Of a stretch of DNA of 32,224 bases, positions 3,395 to 32,224 are shown one piece after another. The position numbers and the translations under genes are program-made. The stretch's first letter is position 1, and each line of letters starts with the position of its first letter. This stretch comes from a virus. The notes under the pieces are model-generated. The model made no database searches. It was not told the origin of the DNA and saw only the letters and a program-made list of their open reading frames with translations. The stretch is taken from IMG/VR virus record IMGVR_UViG_3300047548_001345, positions 1 through 32,224 of that record; one strand, given 5' to 3'.

Positions 3395-4456
3395 ATGAGT
3401 AAGAAGGTCTTGATCGTTTTTCTGGCGCTGTTGAGCTGGGCAATTGCTGGCTGTGGCAGCCCAATGGCTGTGCAGGCTGCGCCTCTTGGCACCCCTGAGG
3501 CGAAGCGCAGCGCAACGCCTGCTATCACGGCAACGGCGACGCTTTCTCCTACCCCTACTGTTGATTGGCAGGGGACTGCGATCGTGGCACAGGCGACGGC
3601 GGATGAAGCGCGGCGATTGGATACGCAGGCCACCGCCCAAGAGAAGGATCGCATTCAGGAGCAACTCGCCTGGACCGCTGAGGCGAACCAGTGGACCGCT
3701 CAGGCGGATCAGTGGACTGCCACTGCAGCATTGACATCGGTGCCATTGACGGCGACCCAGCAGGCTGTTGTGAATACGCAAGTACCGATTGACCAAGCAT
3801 TGATGTCTGGGCAGTTGACGGCAACGAAGGAGGCTCCGACTCAGATCGTGGCGATGATCGATGCTAAGAATTATGAAACGTATGGAGCGACCGATTATGT
3901 GGTGCGTTTGTTCGTGCTGGGGGCATTAGGTGTGTTCCTGCTGGGCATTGGTTTGTTTGCATTATCTGCACGCAATAAAGAGGATGTGAAGCCTCGAAGC
4001 GCTGTACCTTCTCAGGCTGTGCGCGAGCCGGATCTTATCCAATTGAAGCCTGAAACGATCGTGAATGCAAAAACCGATTATGGAAAGGGCTATGGAATTG
4101 ACCAGGTTTACAAGGTGCCATGCTCGCGTGAGCAATTGAGTGAATTGGCTGAGCGTGTGATCGTGAAGGGTGAGACTTTGGGTGTGAATAACTTCGAAGG
4201 GAGCGGCACACTCTTTACGCGTAGCGTTTTTATGCGAGTGCGGAACTTTTTGCAGGCGAACTTTATGGCAAAGAGTGCTGGTGCCGGATCAGGAAGCATG
4301 ATCTTGACTGATAAGGGCGAGGCGTTCCTGCGTGGGTGGCTGGAACGCAATGAGCTCCCCCATTCATATTCGTTCGACCAAAAAAATTACGAAGTGCCTT
4401 TGGTCATGAGTCATGAACATGATGCTCATGCCGTTGCTCATGGGGGAGGGGCATGA
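3395..4456 (+). CDS. Lipoprotein with membrane segment and putative C-terminal winged helix
   Basis: No family was recognised for this 353-residue protein. Residues 1-20 form a lipoprotein signal peptide ending in the lipobox IAGC (Cys20). Residues 21-160 are rich in Thr, Ala and Pro, with repeated QWTAQA-like units and probable coiled coil. Residues about 168-190 form a hydrophobic membrane segment followed by a basic stretch. Residues 235-318 (VYKVPCSREQLSELAERVI to FLRGWL) look like a winged-helix domain, and the tail is His-rich (SHEHDAHAVAH). The predicted layout is an outer lipid anchor, one membrane crossing and a cytoplasmic DNA-binding tail. This start is chosen because GGAGG lies just upstream and the signal peptide begins here; an in-frame extension to 3086 would cross the heptamer repeats. 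It sits just before parM-parR, so a membrane-linked role in segregation is possible but unproven. Confidence 0.7.
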   Translation: MSKKVLIVFLALLSWAIAGCGSPMAVQAAPLGTPEAKRSATPAITATATLSPTPTVDWQGTAIVAQATADEARRLDTQATAQEKDRIQEQLAWTAEANQWTAQADQWTATAALTSVPLTATQQAVVNTQVPIDQALMSGQLTATKEAPTQIVAMIDAKNYETYGATDYVVRLFVLGALGVFLLGIGLFALSARNKEDVKPRSAVPSQAVREPDLIQLKPETIVNAKTDYGKGYGIDQVYKVPCSREQLSELAERVIVKGETLGVNNFEGSGTLFTRSVFMRVRNFLQANFMAKSAGAGSGSMILTDKGEAFLRGWLERNELPHSYSFDQKNYEVPLVMSHEHDAHAVAHGGGA

Positions 4457-4460
4457 ATTA

Positions 4461-4507
4461 TTAACCGCCAAAAACTATTGATCGATATTTAACCGTCAAA
4501 AACTATT
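4461..4507. repeat. 19-bp direct repeat upstream of parM-like gene
   Basis: TTAACCGCCAAAAACTATT (4461-4479) and TTAACCGTCAAAAACTATT (4489-4507) differ at one position and start 28 bp apart. They fill most of the gap before the actin-like partition gene. In type II partition systems ParR binds direct repeats (parC) upstream of parM and represses the operon. These repeats fit that position, but two copies are few for a centromere. They may be a promoter operator, with further sites in the heptamer cluster upstream. Confidence 0.6.
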
Positions 4508-4530
4508 TCAAATATCACAGGAGATAAATC

Positions 4531-5553
4531 ATGAATAACAAAATCTATTTCGGCGCAGATCTGGGTATGGGTGCTTTCAAGGGATGGGGTCCTAAAGGCG
4601 GTGCTCAGGTATTGAGCCTTGTTTCTTCGAATGGTGCGCAGCGCCTGGAAGAGTCTTTTGGATCTTCGAGCAAGCGGGCACGACCCATCGAAGTGAGCAG
4701 CGAGTATGGCTCGTATTTCGTCGGTGACAATGCGCATGATTATGGCGTGCCGATCCAGAACATGGCGTTTGACCGCCTGGCTGGGACTTCAGAGATCCGC
4801 TCGATCTTTTATGCGGGTCTGCACCAGTATCAAAAGCAGCATGGCGTTTTTGACCGCCCACTTTCGCTGATGGTTGGTTTGCCGTTCCAGATGTTGATGG
4901 GATCGATGTCGAAGGAATACAAGGCAGCTGTGAAGAAGTGGATGGTGGGCACGCATGAGTTCAGCGCAGATGGCACTCACTATAAGGTTGAAGTTGCTGA
5001 TGCGGTGTTGAAACCACAGGCAATGGGGATCTTGTTCGATTACACCTACGATGAGAACGGAATTTTGGACCCGAGCAAGGCGAACCTGTGGGTGGAAGAA
5101 ACTGCAGGGCTTTCGTTCGGTCGGAAGACGATCGAGTTCATGCTGACGCGTGAGAACGATGATGTGGACCGCTTCACTGGTGGTGTGGATATGGGCGTGA
5201 CGCGTTTGCTCGAAGGAATCAATCGGCAGTATGAAATCACCCTGGGGATGGAACGCCCATATACCTTGGGCGAGCTGGATATGAAACTGCGCAATCGCAA
5301 GGTGGATAAAGAAGTGATGAGGCGTGCGATGGAAGATTGGATCCAGCAGATCTCTGGCGCGATCGATGAGCGTTGGGGTCAGTATTACCGGCGTTTTTCG
5401 GCTGTGATCGTGGTGGGTGGCGGCGCTGAGCTTTTGCGCCCGCATATTCATACGCTGTTGCGCGGGAATGTGATCGTGCCGGATAACGCAGTGGAAGCAA
5501 TCTCGCGCGGCATGTACAAGATGGCGCTGAAATACGCCTCGAAGAGGGCGTGA
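4531..5553 (+). CDS. ParM-like actin-family segregation ATPase
   Basis: This is a probable actin-like ATPase that polymerises into filaments and moves phage or plasmid DNA copies apart. The 340-residue length is typical of the ParM/StbA/Alp group. The N-terminal motif GADLGMGAFKG (8-18) matches the phosphate-1 loop of actin-fold proteins. VVGGGAELL (294-302) matches the adenosine loop, and the C-terminal segment PDNAVEAISRGMYKMAL resembles the end of ParM homologues. The phosphate-2 region (GGVDMGVTRLLEG) is divergent. CAGGAG (4518-4523) lies 7 bases before the ATG. The next gene overlaps its stop codon by one base and encodes a small ParR-like protein, which supports a partition operon. Partition operons suggest a stage of extrachromosomal maintenance. 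An actin used for phage DNA positioning during lytic growth is an alternative. Confidence 0.82.
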   Translation: MNNKIYFGADLGMGAFKGWGPKGGAQVLSLVSSNGAQRLEESFGSSSKRARPIEVSSEYGSYFVGDNAHDYGVPIQNMAFDRLAGTSEIRSIFYAGLHQYQKQHGVFDRPLSLMVGLPFQMLMGSMSKEYKAAVKKWMVGTHEFSADGTHYKVEVADAVLKPQAMGILFDYTYDENGILDPSKANLWVEETAGLSFGRKTIEFMLTRENDDVDRFTGGVDMGVTRLLEGINRQYEITLGMERPYTLGELDMKLRNRKVDKEVMRRAMEDWIQQISGAIDERWGQYYRRFSAVIVVGGGAELLRPHIHTLLRGNVIVPDNAVEAISRGMYKMALKYASKRA

Positions 5554-5810
5554 TGGGTAGACCCAAGAATGCCAGGAAAAAGATTCGAGTGCGTTTGGAT
5601 GGGTATCTGGATCCAGACGACGAGATTTTGAAGTGGCTGCAGTCGCTCCCTCCCCGTTCGAAGTTCCCTTCGGTGATCAAACGGTTGAAGATGGGTGCTG
5701 CGCTTTCGAGTGTGACCGCTGAGACACCAGATGATGAGGTCCTGCGGATGGTGCGTGAAGCTGAAGCTGCAGCGGATGCTTTCTTCGACAAGTACGAAGA
5801 TGACGAGTAG
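5553..5810 (+). CDS. ParR-like ribbon-helix-helix partition adaptor
   Basis: This small protein of 85 residues probably binds the centromere and links it to ParM filaments. Residues 10-50 (RKKIRVRLDG, DEILKWLQSLPPRSKFPSVIKRLKMG) have the strand-helix-helix pattern of ParR/StbB ribbon-helix-helix proteins. The rest is acidic, as in adaptor tails that touch the filament. The ATG at 5553 overlaps the parM stop codon (TGATG), so the two are translationally coupled; an in-frame GTG three bases earlier is less likely. The identification rests mainly on fold pattern and on the neighbouring actin gene, because ParR proteins vary greatly in sequence. A different RHH regulator is possible. Confidence 0.65.
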   Translation: MGRPKNARKKIRVRLDGYLDPDDEILKWLQSLPPRSKFPSVIKRLKMGAALSSVTAETPDDEVLRMVREAEAAADAFFDKYEDDE

Positions 5811-9169: not shown

Positions 9170-9763
9170 ATGCCTATTCCACAACTTACATATCAATTGC
9201 CGCTCGATCTGGATCTGCCAGAGGCGGAAGAAGATCTGGCTGAGGGGCAAGCAAAAAGCGAACTTGCAAAGAAAGCTTTGGAGGGAATGTTTGGTAAGAG
9301 CGGCGCTCCACGTTGGTTGGATGATTATCTTGAACTGGTGCGCGGTGGCTGGCATTGGCGCGTGGCAGCGTATATCGCTTGGGCATCGAGCCCACGTGTA
9401 GCACGGGAGCCAAAGACTCAGGATGAGCTGGCTAGGATCCATTTGGGCTTGACCAGCGATCGGGCTATTAGCACCTGGCGCAAACGTAACCCTGCCATCG
9501 ATGAGGTGGTGAGGATGATGCAAGCGGGTCCGCTATTCAAACATCGCGCAGAGATCTTTACTGCTTTGGTGGCTGTGGCTGTAAAGCCTGATTACAAAGG
9601 TCATGCCGATCGGAAGCTTGCTTTGGAATTGATGGGGGACTACACCCCCATTCGCAAGGTTCTGGCTGAGCTGCGAAAGAAAAGCGGTGGTGATGCTGGT
9701 GACTTGAGCGAGAATGATCTGGACGAACTGGCAAGCGCCCTGGAGGAAGAAAGCAATGACTGA
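9170..9763 (+). CDS. Terminase small subunit-like protein, copy A
   Basis: The 197-residue product is a probable DNA-recognition protein of the packaging machine, or a regulator derived from one. Residues 59-110 (GGWHWRVAAYIAWAS, then PKTQDELARIHLGLTSDRAISTWRKRNPAID) look like a helix-turn-helix region of phage terminase small subunits. The same block recurs in the gene directly before the terminase large subunit, so the two are paralogues. The start at 9170 follows AAGGAG (9158-9163); an in-frame ATG at 9119 falls inside the leader stem-loop and is rejected. The C-terminus is acidic. It overlaps the methyltransferase gene by 8 bp. It lies 3 kb from the large subunit, so it may have a separate role, for example recognising a different site. 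Confidence 0.65.
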   Translation: MPIPQLTYQLPLDLDLPEAEEDLAEGQAKSELAKKALEGMFGKSGAPRWLDDYLELVRGGWHWRVAAYIAWASSPRVAREPKTQDELARIHLGLTSDRAISTWRKRNPAIDEVVRMMQAGPLFKHRAEIFTALVAVAVKPDYKGHADRKLALELMGDYTPIRKVLAELRKKSGGDAGDLSENDLDELASALEEESND

Positions 9764-11105
9764 CATCAAGCCTGATACGCATAATGCCAATAAGGGAACA
9801 AAGCGTGGAAAGGACCTATTGCGAAAGTCCCTTCAGGAGTTGGGCGGTGGAAGGTCCATATTGTTGGATAAGGATGGGAATATTATTGCTGGCAATAAGA
9901 CCTTCGAAGGCGCACAAGACGTTGGATTGAAGGTGCGCGTGGTAAAGGCTGGGCGAGATGAAATCGTTGCGGTTCAGCGTGAGGATCTGGATCTCATGGA
10001 CCCAAGCGGCGAAGCTCGCAGGCTGGCATATATGGACAACCGTGTGGCTGAACTGGATCTGGATTGGGATGCAGATCAGCTTGCTGAAGACCTGGCATTG
10101 GGGATCGATCTGGATTCCCTGGGATTTGGTGCCAATGAGCTTTACTTGATCATTGGCGATATGGGCGACAAGGATGTAGATGCGGAGCCGAAACTTGATA
10201 AGGCAGATGAGCTGTGCATTCAATGGGGAACCGTTCCGGGGCAACTTTGGAAGCTTGGAAACCATTATCTTTTATGCGGAGATTGCACAAACGAACAGCA
10301 TGTGAGCGCTTTGTTGAATGGGCTGCAATTCGATCTGCTGTGTACGGACCCGCCTTATGGAGTGAATATCAAGGGCGGTGATGGTGGTGAGATGACCATT
10401 GCGAACGATAATGCCAAGGATCTACCCGCCTTGTTGAATGGGTCTTTTTCCCTGGCGAAACAGCAGGCAGCTAAAAAAGCTGCGTTCTATATTGCTGGTC
10501 CACACGGAGCGCAGTTCTATGAATTCGCCAGAGCGATCATCAGCGTTGGAATGATCTGGAAGCAGACACTTGTTTGGGCAAAGAACAATCTGGTATTTGG
10601 GCGAAGCGATTATCAACCAAAGCATGAAGTTATTTTTTATGGAAACTTTGGAAACGGGCGCATGTGGAATGGCGGGAGAAAACAAACCACTGTTATTGAA
10701 GAGACCATGCAGCGTTTATCCTTTTTGAACGAAAAGGAGATTCAGGTCAATTTTGGCGATCAAGTGTATATCGTCCGCGGTGATAACCTTGAGGCATTTG
10801 AGGCAGAGAGTGATCTGCTTCAGGTTGAGAAACCGCAAAAGAATGAACTGCATCCGACCATCAAGCCTACCAAGTTGATCAAGCGATTAGTGCGGAACAG
10901 TTCGAACGAAGGCGATGTTGTGTACGATCCATTTAGCGGAGCTGGCACGACCATTTTGGCTTGTGAAAATACAAAGCGAATCTGTTATGCGATGGAGCTG
11001 CTGCCAAAGTTCGTGGCTGTTGATCTTCAGCGCTGGCAGGATGCGACCGGGCAAGCTCCAATGTTGCTCAAAAATATATTGACATCGGAATCGAAATCTG
11101 TATAA
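9756..11105 (+). CDS. ParB-like domain fused to DNA (N4/N6) methyltransferase
   Basis: This is a probable DNA adenine-N6 or cytosine-N4 methyltransferase that could protect phage DNA from restriction or mark it for packaging. Residues 13-125 form a ParB/sulfiredoxin-like domain (GGGRSILLDKDGNIIAGNKTF). The catalytic motif DPPY lies at 198-201 (CTDPPYGV), and the SAM-binding motif DPFSGAGTT at 391-399. The DPPY motif comes before the SAM motif, with a variable target-recognition region between, which is the beta-class order. The start at 9756 follows TGGAGGAAG. No matching restriction enzyme is nearby, so it acts alone. The 449-residue length is usual for this phage fusion. Its 3' end contains promoter P2. 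Confidence 0.85.
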   Translation: MTDIKPDTHNANKGTKRGKDLLRKSLQELGGGRSILLDKDGNIIAGNKTFEGAQDVGLKVRVVKAGRDEIVAVQREDLDLMDPSGEARRLAYMDNRVAELDLDWDADQLAEDLALGIDLDSLGFGANELYLIIGDMGDKDVDAEPKLDKADELCIQWGTVPGQLWKLGNHYLLCGDCTNEQHVSALLNGLQFDLLCTDPPYGVNIKGGDGGEMTIANDNAKDLPALLNGSFSLAKQQAAKKAAFYIAGPHGAQFYEFARAIISVGMIWKQTLVWAKNNLVFGRSDYQPKHEVIFYGNFGNGRMWNGGRKQTTVIEETMQRLSFLNEKEIQVNFGDQVYIVRGDNLEAFEAESDLLQVEKPQKNELHPTIKPTKLIKRLVRNSSNEGDVVYDPFSGAGTTILACENTKRICYAMELLPKFVAVDLQRWQDATGQAPMLLKNILTSESKSV

Positions 11106-16935: not shown

Positions 16936-16941
16936 GGCATG
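16925..16941 (+). repeat. Left copy of 17-bp repeat flanking the Acb2-like cassette
   Basis: AAAAGGAGTAAGGCATG covers the last codons and stop of the MuF gene, the ribosome-binding site and the start codon of the next gene. The same 17 bases recur at 17285-17301, exactly 360 bp away. Confidence 0.85.
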
Positions 16942-17295
16942 CAAAAACTAATTGAAGCGGCTGAAAAATATCGTCTGTTGCATTCTGCAAGTGAAGCATC
17001 TGGAAATAGAGAAGGTCTTAACGATGCTTATGCCGAATTTATACAGGCACTCGATGAAGCAAAAAAGATTGATGATGCCAATGTAGAAAAGGATCTCAAC
17101 AATCGTTTTACTTATCACGCACCCATGCCGAATCAAATTGGAAAGTTTGAAAACATCCGTAAGAACGCACGTTGGATGGTGGCATTGTTCACTCAGATGT
17201 GCCCGAAAAGCCGCGAGCTATCTCTTGCAATCACAAAGATCGAAGAGGCTGTATTTTGGGCAAATGCAGCGATCGCTCGAAATGAAAAGGAGTAA
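16939..17295 (+). CDS. Acb2/Tad1-hairpin-like anti-CBASS/anti-Thoeris sponge candidate
   Basis: The 118-residue product probably sequesters the cyclic nucleotide signals of host defence. Residues 56-118 match the pattern I know from the Acb2/Tad1 hairpin domain: RFTYHAPMPNQIGKFENIR, then CPKSRELSLAITKIEEAV, then FWANAAIARN. Acb2 binds cyclic di- and trinucleotides made in CBASS defence, and Tad1 binds Thoeris signals and some of the same ligands. The N-terminal 50 residues form an added helical segment. The gene sits between MuF and the protease, an odd place for an anti-defence gene, and looks more A/T-rich than its neighbours (by eye). Its flanking 17-bp repeats suggest insertion as a unit. 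The ligand cannot be read from sequence alone. Confidence 0.75.
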   Translation: MQKLIEAAEKYRLLHSASEASGNREGLNDAYAEFIQALDEAKKIDDANVEKDLNNRFTYHAPMPNQIGKFENIRKNARWMVALFTQMCPKSRELSLAITKIEEAVFWANAAIARNEKE

Positions 17296-30555: not shown

Positions 30556-30583
30556 ACCGCGCTGGTTAGCGCGGTTTTTTTTT
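30556..30583. terminator. Bidirectional intrinsic terminator between tail and recombinase genes
   Basis: ACCGCGCT (30556-30563) and AGCGCGGT (30568-30575) form an 8-bp stem with a GGTT loop and nine T (30575-30583). Five A lie just before the stem at 30550-30554 (broken by one G), so the minus-strand transcript also gets a T-run. It ends both converging operons. The recombinase stop codon sits in the loop and right arm. Confidence 0.9.
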
Positions 30584-32224
30584 GAATGAAATTGGATGTT
30601 GGAAATGTTGCCTTAAGAGAGGTGCCCCCACGGGGGCGGGTCTTTTAGGCGACATTATTTTTTCCGTGGGGGCGGAATCAAAAGGGGGCGGATCGTCCGG
30701 TGGGCGGAGTAGGTCTGCGAGGGGCGGTAGGAAGTAACTGAGGGATCCAACGAATTGCTTCTCTTCTTTTTTGACGGTTACTTTGTGGATGAAGGATTGC
30801 AGGACCGGCTTCATTGCTTCGACCGGGAGGTTGCCGCTGAGGAGATCTTCGGTGAGGATGCGGGAGGCTTCGAAGATTTCTTCCTGGGTCATGGGTGGTG
30901 TGGCTTCGAAGCGGGTCTTGGTCAGTTCGGTGATCTCTTTGAGGATGGTGGCACGTTCGGTTTCGAGCTGGGTGAGTTTGTCGAGCAGGGTTGGACTGCC
31001 ACCACGATTGGCGATGGCCGCGGCTGTGTTGGCTATCTGAGCGGAGAGGCGTTTTTTGTCGCTTTCGAGGGCGGTGAGGCGGTCTTTGCGGCGGGTTTCC
31101 CTGTGGTCTGTACTATGTCGTTCGACTTCGATCATGGCGGCGAGGCTATCGGGCAGGAGGATCTGTTCGCGCAGGGTGCCGATGACAGCTTCTTCGAGGG
31201 CGTAGCGCGGGATGCGGGAGGCGGTGCAGCCTGCTTTGCGTTTGGCGCGTGAGCAGCGGTAGGATTCGTCTCTGTTGCCGGTGATGTGGGTGCGGGTGGT
31301 GGTGGCTCCGCTCATGGGGGCACCACAAATGCCGCAGTAAACAAGACCCGATAAGAGGTAGGGTGAGGCGAGGCGTTTTGGATGTCGCTCGCTGGTGCGG
31401 ACCTGAGCGTATTCGCGAATCATTTCCTGGACTTTGTTCCAGGTCTGGATGTCTATGATGGGTTCGCAGTAATCTTCAACGACGAGATCTCCAAATTCAA
31501 GAATGCCGATGAAGATCTTGTTTGCGAAGAAGGTTTTGTATGAGTTGATGGATGTAAAGATGCGGGTTTCTGTGTGGATCTGTGCGAGGGAGGAACCGGC
31601 TGCGCGCATGGTGAAGGCGCGTTTGATGCGGGGGATGATGTTGGGATCGGGGACCCAGCGATTGGCGATGTGGGGAGAGCCATCGCGCCGGGTGCCGATG
31701 GTGACGGGTTCGCGTTTGAATCCGACAGGCGGGGTGCCTGGTACGCAGCGGTGCTTAAGGACGAGATCACGCAGACCGCGTTTGGCATCTTCGGAGGTTT
31801 GGCGTCGTTTTTCTTCGTTGCTGATGTCGATGAAGAATTCGATGATGCGTCCGTATTGCCCTTCGGGGATGGGGTCGGTGAGGGAGTGGACGATGATATT
31901 GCGATTGCGCAGGAGGGCTTTGTAGTAGATGGCATCGTCGAGATCTCGCGCGAAGCGGGCGTAGTTCCAGAGCAAGATGCCGTTGGGACGGTCCTCGAGG
32001 CGGCGGGTGGTGTCGATTAGTTTGTTGAAGTCATCGCGGGTGACAGTGGATCCGCCTGATTTGGCGACGTCTACGAATTTGTGACGCAGGGTGAGACCGT
32101 GCTGTTGGCAGTAGGCTTGGATCTCTGTGAGCTGCTGATCGGTGGAGGCGTCCTGGCGCGGTCCCCCACTGTCACGGACGTAGGCGTCTACGATGGAGCC
32201 TGGGGGGAGGGTTGAGGGTGGTGG
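30566..32224 (-). CDS. Large serine recombinase (integrase), 5' end outside window
   Basis: This is a probable site-specific integrase that inserts the phage by attP x attB recombination. The open frame continues to the window edge with no stop, so the start codon lies beyond it. The visible N-terminus reads AYVRDSGGPRQDASTDQQ, with the likely nucleophile Ser in YVRDS and further catalytic Arg in YARFARDLDDA. A recombinase domain follows, then a zinc ribbon (YCGICGAPM, YRCSRAKRKAGC) and a long coiled coil, as in large serine integrases. At least 552 residues are present. The C-terminal tail is Pro-rich and unlike common relatives. It converges with the tail operon. Confidence 0.88.
   Translation of the reverse strand, partial: PPPSTLPPGSIVDAYVRDSGGPRQDASTDQQLTEIQAYCQQHGLTLRHKFVDVAKSGGSTVTRDDFNKLIDTTRRLEDRPNGILLWNYARFARDLDDAIYYKALLRNRNIIVHSLTDPIPEGQYGRIIEFFIDISNEEKRRQTSEDAKRGLRDLVLKHRCVPGTPPVGFKREPVTIGTRRDGSPHIANRWVPDPNIIPRIKRAFTMRAAGSSLAQIHTETRIFTSINSYKTFFANKIFIGILEFGDLVVEDYCEPIIDIQTWNKVQEMIREYAQVRTSERHPKRLASPYLLSGLVYCGICGAPMSGATTTRTHITGNRDESYRCSRAKRKAGCTASRIPRYALEEAVIGTLREQILLPDSLAAMIEVERHSTDHRETRRKDRLTALESDKKRLSAQIANTAAAIANRGGSPTLLDKLTQLETERATILKEITELTKTRFEATPPMTQEEIFEASRILTEDLLSGNLPVEAMKPVLQSFIHKVTVKKEEKQFVGSLSYFLPPLADLLRPPDDPPPFDSAPTEKIMSPKRPAPVGAPLLRQHFQHPISFKKKPR

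Follow-up and report, generated by a model that had tools for sequence, protein, structure and literature searches.

The window, i.e., the whole stretch of DNA analyzed here, covers positions 1-32,224 (32,224 bp) of the IMG/VR virus record IMGVR_UViG_3300047548_001345 and encodes tailed-phage proteins, namely a primase, methyltransferase, terminase, portal, head proteins, tape measure and Dit. The locus of interest comes after the primase gene and consists, on the plus strand, of a gene for a membrane protein (3395-4456), a pair of direct repeats, a gene for an actin-like ATPase family protein, ParM (340 aa; 4531-5553), and a gene for a small ParR-like adaptor (85 aa; 5553-5810). The initial annotation presented the interval 3395-5810 as a type II (ParM-ParR) partition locus. 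The parM-parR part of this interval stands, but position 3395 is the ATG of the separate membrane-protein gene, the reading frame of which is open from 3086; furthermore, that reading did not include the altered active site of ParM, the membrane-protein gene as a part of the locus, or the second DNA element of the relatives, all described below. The parM and parR genes overlap by a single base, exactly as had been noted (stop codon TGA at 5551-5553, start codon ATG at 5553-5555); an alternative GTG start at 5550 would yield an adaptor of 86 aa.

Several other genes in the window deserve mention in their own right. A protein with an Acb2/Tad1 hairpin domain (16939-17295; Pfam 2.6e-17) is encoded between the head genes and is a possible anti-CBASS/anti-Thoeris sponge. 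In addition, a ParB-like N-terminal region is fused to a DNA methyltransferase (9714-11105; phrog_498 and phrog_8071), and a phage protein (6589-7248; phrog_9210) has a C-terminal DnaJ domain (Pfam 2e-10).

The identification of ParM as an actin-like ATPase is borne out by Pfam matches (ALP_N, 6.7e-13; MreB-like_C, 4.2e-12), a match to phrog_691, 'partition protein' (9.4e-34), and a confident AlphaFold2 model (pLDDT 91.4, pTM 0.90) that matches ParM structures in Foldseek, the best match being pCBH ParM (6izr; E 2e-19). A ParM search with a three-row alignment yielded 7 loci, and one with a twenty-row alignment yielded 44 viral loci. One relative detected in ParM searches (L002) has a ParM 66% identical to that of the window; another family member is Virus Rctr41k (KX853513.1), with a ParM that is about 40-42% identical and genes annotated as hypothetical. 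Phage terminase (phrog_38) is present in 38 of the 46 family records. A literature search in one open-access library found no paper on this ParM family.

A single scan of genome contigs produced 10 loci, all from contigs titled as Chloroflexota MAGs (nine Anaerolineae, Anaerolinea or Thermoflexales, and one 'Chloroflexi bacterium'). Given these titles, the hosts of the virus family as a group are probably Anaerolineae. ParM relatives are found in 33 of 298 genomes of the class Anaerolineae.

The active site of the family ParMs is altered. In the window, the phosphate-2 Asp is replaced by Ser195, so that ISVGFNT is aligned by the profile with IDVGFKT of pCBH ParM; the Asp is also present in CorM and pSK41 ParM. 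Across 45 family members, this residue is Ser in 41, Trp in two, Asn in one and Gly in one, and is never Asp; in the MAG loci L036-L041 and L088-L099, the position is occupied by S, N, G or T. By contrast, the Asp is found in all nine outside relatives, which come from two Bacillus phages, one Bosea plasmid and six Anaerolineae-class genome loci. The phosphate-1 Asp and the equivalent of the conserved Gln, which we take to correspond to actin Q137, are kept in all readable family rows. A glutamate, E190, found in 50 of the 51 family rows that could be read, was considered as a stand-in for the lost Asp but was rejected as a simple swap because it lies five residues from the Asp position along the chain. 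Judging by the motif, the phosphate-2 Asp presumably is the equivalent of D170 of R1 ParM. A change of the phosphate-2 Asp in R1 ParM is reported to increase plasmid loss about 100-fold (PMC5500522) or to leave static filaments (PMC5539076). Because the Asp is replaced throughout the family, hydrolysis of ATP is expected to be slower or differently coupled, and the filaments to be more persistent, than in the case of R1 ParM. Six divergent ParM relatives in Anaerolineae-class genomes (L105-L110) keep the Asp; at least one of these, from a contig of 1.5 Mb, is possibly chromosomal.

The ParR-like adaptor has a basic N-terminus, an acidic tail and, in the monomer model (pLDDT 77), helices at residues 24-31, 37-52 and 60-82, with no strand called before them. 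This fold was not recognized in Pfam, PDB sequence, Foldseek or VIA-align searches, and the best match of the ParR profile against PDB (E 0.014), an unrelated small protein, was discarded. Of the proposed ribbon-helix-helix adaptor, the small gene coupled to parM and the predicted helices are seen, the N-terminal strand is not, and the ribbon-helix-helix fold is plausible judging by the sequence. Within the family, the profile misses ParR in 4 of 52 loci, and DG-type, IDPY-type and GDGN/GDLN-type ParRs can be named by sequence.

The 19-bp direct repeat reported just ahead of parM is indeed there. Putative ParR site 1 (TTAACCGCCAAAAACTATT, 4461-4479) and site 2 (TTAACCGTCAAAAACTATT, 4489-4507), both on the plus strand, are identical in 18 of 19 positions, start 28 bp apart and lie in the 74-bp gap ahead of parM. 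Nowhere else in the window is the core TTAACCG found; a shuffled window would be expected to contain 0.56 matches to the 16-bp degenerate form, with up to 3 mismatches tolerated, compared with two exact copies 28 bp apart in the actual one. The same core is found exactly twice, on the parM strand, in the whole window and in the stretches of 21 and 22 kb from L002 and Rctr41k, respectively, with a spacing of 28, 27 and 27 bp; the pair precedes parM in the window and follows parR in L002 and in Rctr41k (2899/2926).

This geometry recurs across the family. A pattern-only scan of viral_contigs for such pairs returned 23 stretches, of which 17 lie at parMR or parR: 15 have both ParM and ParR, one (L027) has a ParR-like gene at the contig edge, and one (L022) is on the record of L078. 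The remaining six (L019, L021, L024, L028, L029 and L032), several of which are tandem repeats, show no ParM or ParR in the piece examined. Of the 44 viral loci that were identified through ParM only, 22 contain exact pairs of TTAACCG, spaced by 27 bp in 14 loci and by 28 bp in 8, with none at other spacings within 24-32 bp or on the opposite strand; 3 of these pairs are upstream and 19 downstream of parM. None of the 10 MAG loci has an exact pair. A motif-free test, in which the best 16-bp self-match at offsets 15-60 near parMR was taken in 48 loci (threshold, at least 12/16), was passed by 43 loci, with offset 27 taking 15.2 and offset 28 taking 11.0, that is, together 26.2 of 43 versus 6.3% in control regions. 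In a wider search, direct pairs were accepted in 32 of 46 loci, leaving out L037, where the direct match was removed as an AAACC-rich repeat and where there is an inverted candidate. An inverted repeat (at least 10/12, within 120 bp after parR) is present in 13 of the 15 loci without a direct pair; by the same criterion, such a repeat is found in 7 of 150 control regions and in 8 of the 33 loci that do have a direct pair. Several inverted-class loci have half-sites of related sequence, and some of these repeats could be terminators. L049 and L076 have no convincing site pair, and in L072, which encodes an IDPY-type ParR, the TTAACCGTCA sites are exceptionally 18 bp apart. By eye, L047 (4040-4110) may have a third site, again with a step of 27 bp. 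In the 298 Anaerolineae-class genomes, the site-pair pattern gave 2 matches, both tandem simple repeats.

The sequences of the adaptor, ParM and the sites vary in a modular fashion. Mantel tests on 32 loci, in which shared ancestry is only partly controlled, link the last 18 residues of ParR to ParM (r 0.77; 0.74 given the N-domain), whereas the value for the ParR N-domain and ParM, given the tail, is -0.01. Conversely, the site sequence correlates, albeit modestly, with the ParR strand segment (r 0.30, p 0.002; 0.31 given ParM; 0.24 in a 23-locus subset) and not with ParM (r 0.00, 32 loci); the association of the site with the ParR tail is weak (0.22) and is not significant given the N-domain (0.11, p 0.13). 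At the level of individual positions, T is found at position 9 of both sites in five of six loci with IDPY-type ParRs versus none of the 20 DG-type loci (p 9e-5). In the five GDGN/GDLN-type loci, site positions 7-11 are GCGAG, GCGCG or GGAGR, compared with mostly GYCAR or GCTAR in other loci. L072, which is outside both the co-variation and the IDPY/DG comparison sets, breaks both rules with its spacing of 18 and lack of T. A tail that tracks ParM and an N-domain that tracks the DNA site are what a modular adaptor should show. Hence the 19-bp repeat, proposed from the start as the binding site of ParR, very probably serves as such, considering that the same geometry is found in relatives and that the site co-varies with ParR.

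The upstream gene encodes a protein with a lipoprotein-like N-terminus, a transmembrane stretch and a possible, winged-helix-like C-terminus that, by eye, resembles the L003/L072/L062 type. The window protein is 68% identical to its L080 counterpart and has no Pfam match, and no consistent Pfam or PDB match was obtained for this protein. In 32 of 45 loci, a transmembrane stretch is predicted for the product of the gene that precedes parM; among the other ORFs of 150-500 aa that share the strand of parM in these loci, this is the case for 43 of 185 (p 5e-9). The site sequence does not co-vary with the upstream membrane protein (r 0.10, p 0.26, 23 loci). Possibly, this protein anchors the complex at the membrane.

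The relatives also share a second DNA element. All 26 loci with a downstream pair contain a GCGTGCG-like element no more than 130 bp past site 2 (background 5.9%), at a distance of 16-18 bp in 13 loci, 28-31 bp in five and 39-42 bp in eight, so that the clusters are about one helical turn apart. In 24 of these 26 loci, a G-rich block lies 43-45 bp past the element, and in L047 and L058 the distance is 39 bp; in L046 (7593-7691) and the 25 other downstream loci, the element reads TGCGTGCGCT(C/G)GGACAGG and is followed by a TGGGGGAGGGG-like block. The window lacks the GCGTGCG element and instead, like L080, has two arms of an inverted repeat just before the sites: a left arm, CTCCCCCAT (4355-4363), inside the upstream gene, which is the only place on the plus strand of the window where CTCCCCC occurs, and a right arm or G-rich block, ATGGGGGAGGGG (4440-4451), immediately preceding site 1, whereas in most relatives this block follows the sites. 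Nine sources including the window gave no Rfam match at the gathering score, so the downstream element is not explained by any known RNA family; moreover, an RNA stem is not required, given that the left arm CTCCCC is present after site 2 in only 10 of the 26 downstream loci. As a candidate element of the host chromosome, GCGTGCGCT was dropped, with one match in eight genomes. We suspect that the second element acts jointly with the ParR complex as a protein-DNA element.

The window also encodes a large serine recombinase (integrase) on the minus strand (30566-32224), open at the record end, that matches phrog_95 (1.3e-53) and PF00239 (8e-20, at 31766-32185), in agreement with the initial annotation. 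Counted per record, and records may be fragments, PF00239 is found in 20 of the 46 family records, PF00589 in 31, both in 19 and at least one in 32; Rctr41k has two tyrosine recombinases and no PF00239 match. The combination of a partition locus with an integrase is the rule in this family. The original notion of a ParM-ParR-parC-like locus in an integrase-bearing phage is supported; as was also suggested there, the phage might persist as a plasmid for part of its life or use the filaments to place its DNA ahead of integration or packaging.

The most similar known systems are the ParMRC loci of plasmids R1, pSK41 and pCBH, in which an actin-like ParM gene is likewise followed by a small adaptor gene, with repeats at the locus, before parM as in the window; pCBH and pSK41 ParM are also the closest folds to the window ParM. 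The R1 centromere contains about ten iterons and that of pSK41 about four, so that the centromere proposed here, which has only a pair of sites in direct or apparently inverted orientation, would be unusual; two sites is far fewer than in known centromeres. Additional differences from plasmid ParMRC are the missing phosphate-2 Asp, the mostly downstream location of the pair relative to parR, the upstream membrane-protein gene and an adaptor outside Pfam. Rctr41k shares ParM, ParR and the site pair with the window and differs in the location of the pair.

Partition loci accompanied by integrases are also described for the SXT/R391 elements and prophage CGP3 of Corynebacterium. The AlpC/AlpA/alpS system of this integrating phage is actin-like, is needed for efficient replication and involves binding of AlpA to alpS, with 24 repeats and a consensus, TTAAnnG, that resembles the family TTAACCG (PMC4446434); PMC5539076 describes AlpA as lacking homology to ParR and AlpC as hydrolyzing ATP. 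In CGP3, however, the adaptor gene comes first, whereas the window has the order parM-parR and two sites instead of many TTAAnnG repeats. SrpMRC of the SXT/R391 integrative elements is a ParMRC-like locus with an SrpR that is reported to have no homology to known ParR (PMC4489591); these elements, compared here by description, are not phages. In the Bacillus phages B83, Eldridge and BM15, too, ParM is phage-encoded and a small gene lies downstream. B83, compared by description, is reported to have XerC/D-type recombinases and iterons before parM (PMC6669507); the ParMs of Eldridge and BM15 keep the Asp and are 23-25% identical to the window ParM.

Taken together, the actin-like fold of ParM and the centromere-like repeats apparently matched to the adaptor by presence and co-variation are features of type II (ParMRC) systems; the adaptor gene is adjacent and its tail co-varies with ParM, as it would if the adaptor bound ParM via its C-terminus. 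The catalytic phosphate-2 Asp is missing, and therefore the locus is filed as a divergent ParMRC-like variant rather than a canonical member. We consider it likely, with good confidence, that this is a phage-borne ParMRC-like module for DNA segregation or positioning. The ParR N-terminal domain would bind the site pair (4461-4507 in the window) and the C-terminal tail would dock ParM, such that a ParM filament could grow from, or be capped by, phage DNA. Its substrate would be the phage genome outside the chromosome, circular or replicating, once infection or excision has taken place, with the integrase and the par locus serving different phases. Gene order, the conserved fixed-geometry site pair and the modular co-variation back this scheme at the sequence level; from these, we infer ParR binding, filament growth and DNA movement. 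In linking DNA to filaments, the system very probably works like ParMRC. A dynamic motor entirely like that of R1 is disfavored by the changed active site. One can also envisage an actin system of four parts linked to the membrane, in which ParM without the catalytic Asp would form persistent filaments that hydrolyze ATP slowly or not at all; capped by a two-site ParR complex, these would hold phage DNA at the membrane as a tether or track rather than push copies apart by dynamic instability. This reading is rather unlikely.

Other functions of the same parts have to be weighed against segregation. The module might position or organize lytic replication of phage DNA in the manner of AlpC/AlpA, rather than partition a plasmid-prophage. 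This is a sub-reading of the scheme preferred here, so that the confidences overlap, and its chances appear to be somewhat short of even: CGP3 AlpAC is the closest experimental precedent, most family records have integrases, and the window locus follows the primase gene, but AlpAC differs in both gene order and adaptor. ParR-type proteins often repress their own promoters, and the location of the window pair directly before parM would fit a main role as an operator through which the small protein represses its own parM operon, segregation being of secondary importance or lacking. This appears quite improbable given that 19 of the 22 exact pairs are downstream of parM, always in the same orientation, that an autorepressor need not carry a tail tracking an actin-like protein, and that a crude scan found no sigma-70-like promoter at the window pair. 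Finally, the pair together with the downstream GCGTGCGCTCGGACAGG and G-rich elements could be a replication origin or a recombination site, with ParMR adjacent by layout only. The composite structure with fixed internal spacing (the first element in 26/26 loci, the G-rich block at 43-45 bp in 24/26) and the two recombinase types that often occur on one record are compatible with this idea; however, the site sequence co-varies with the ParR N-domain, and the window keeps the pair on the other side of parMR without the GCGTGCG element, so an origin or recombination site is improbable as well.

Under the segregation or positioning reading, this family bears on a central aspect of the ParM mechanism. 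Dynamic ATP hydrolysis is held to underlie ParM-driven DNA segregation; a natural ParM family in which the Asp is replaced while the module is kept with co-varying parts would allow a direct test of the need for hydrolysis. The loci also represent a natural specificity series of ParR strand versus DNA site and, in phages whose bacterial hosts are largely uncultured, point to a centromere that is very small and strictly spaced.
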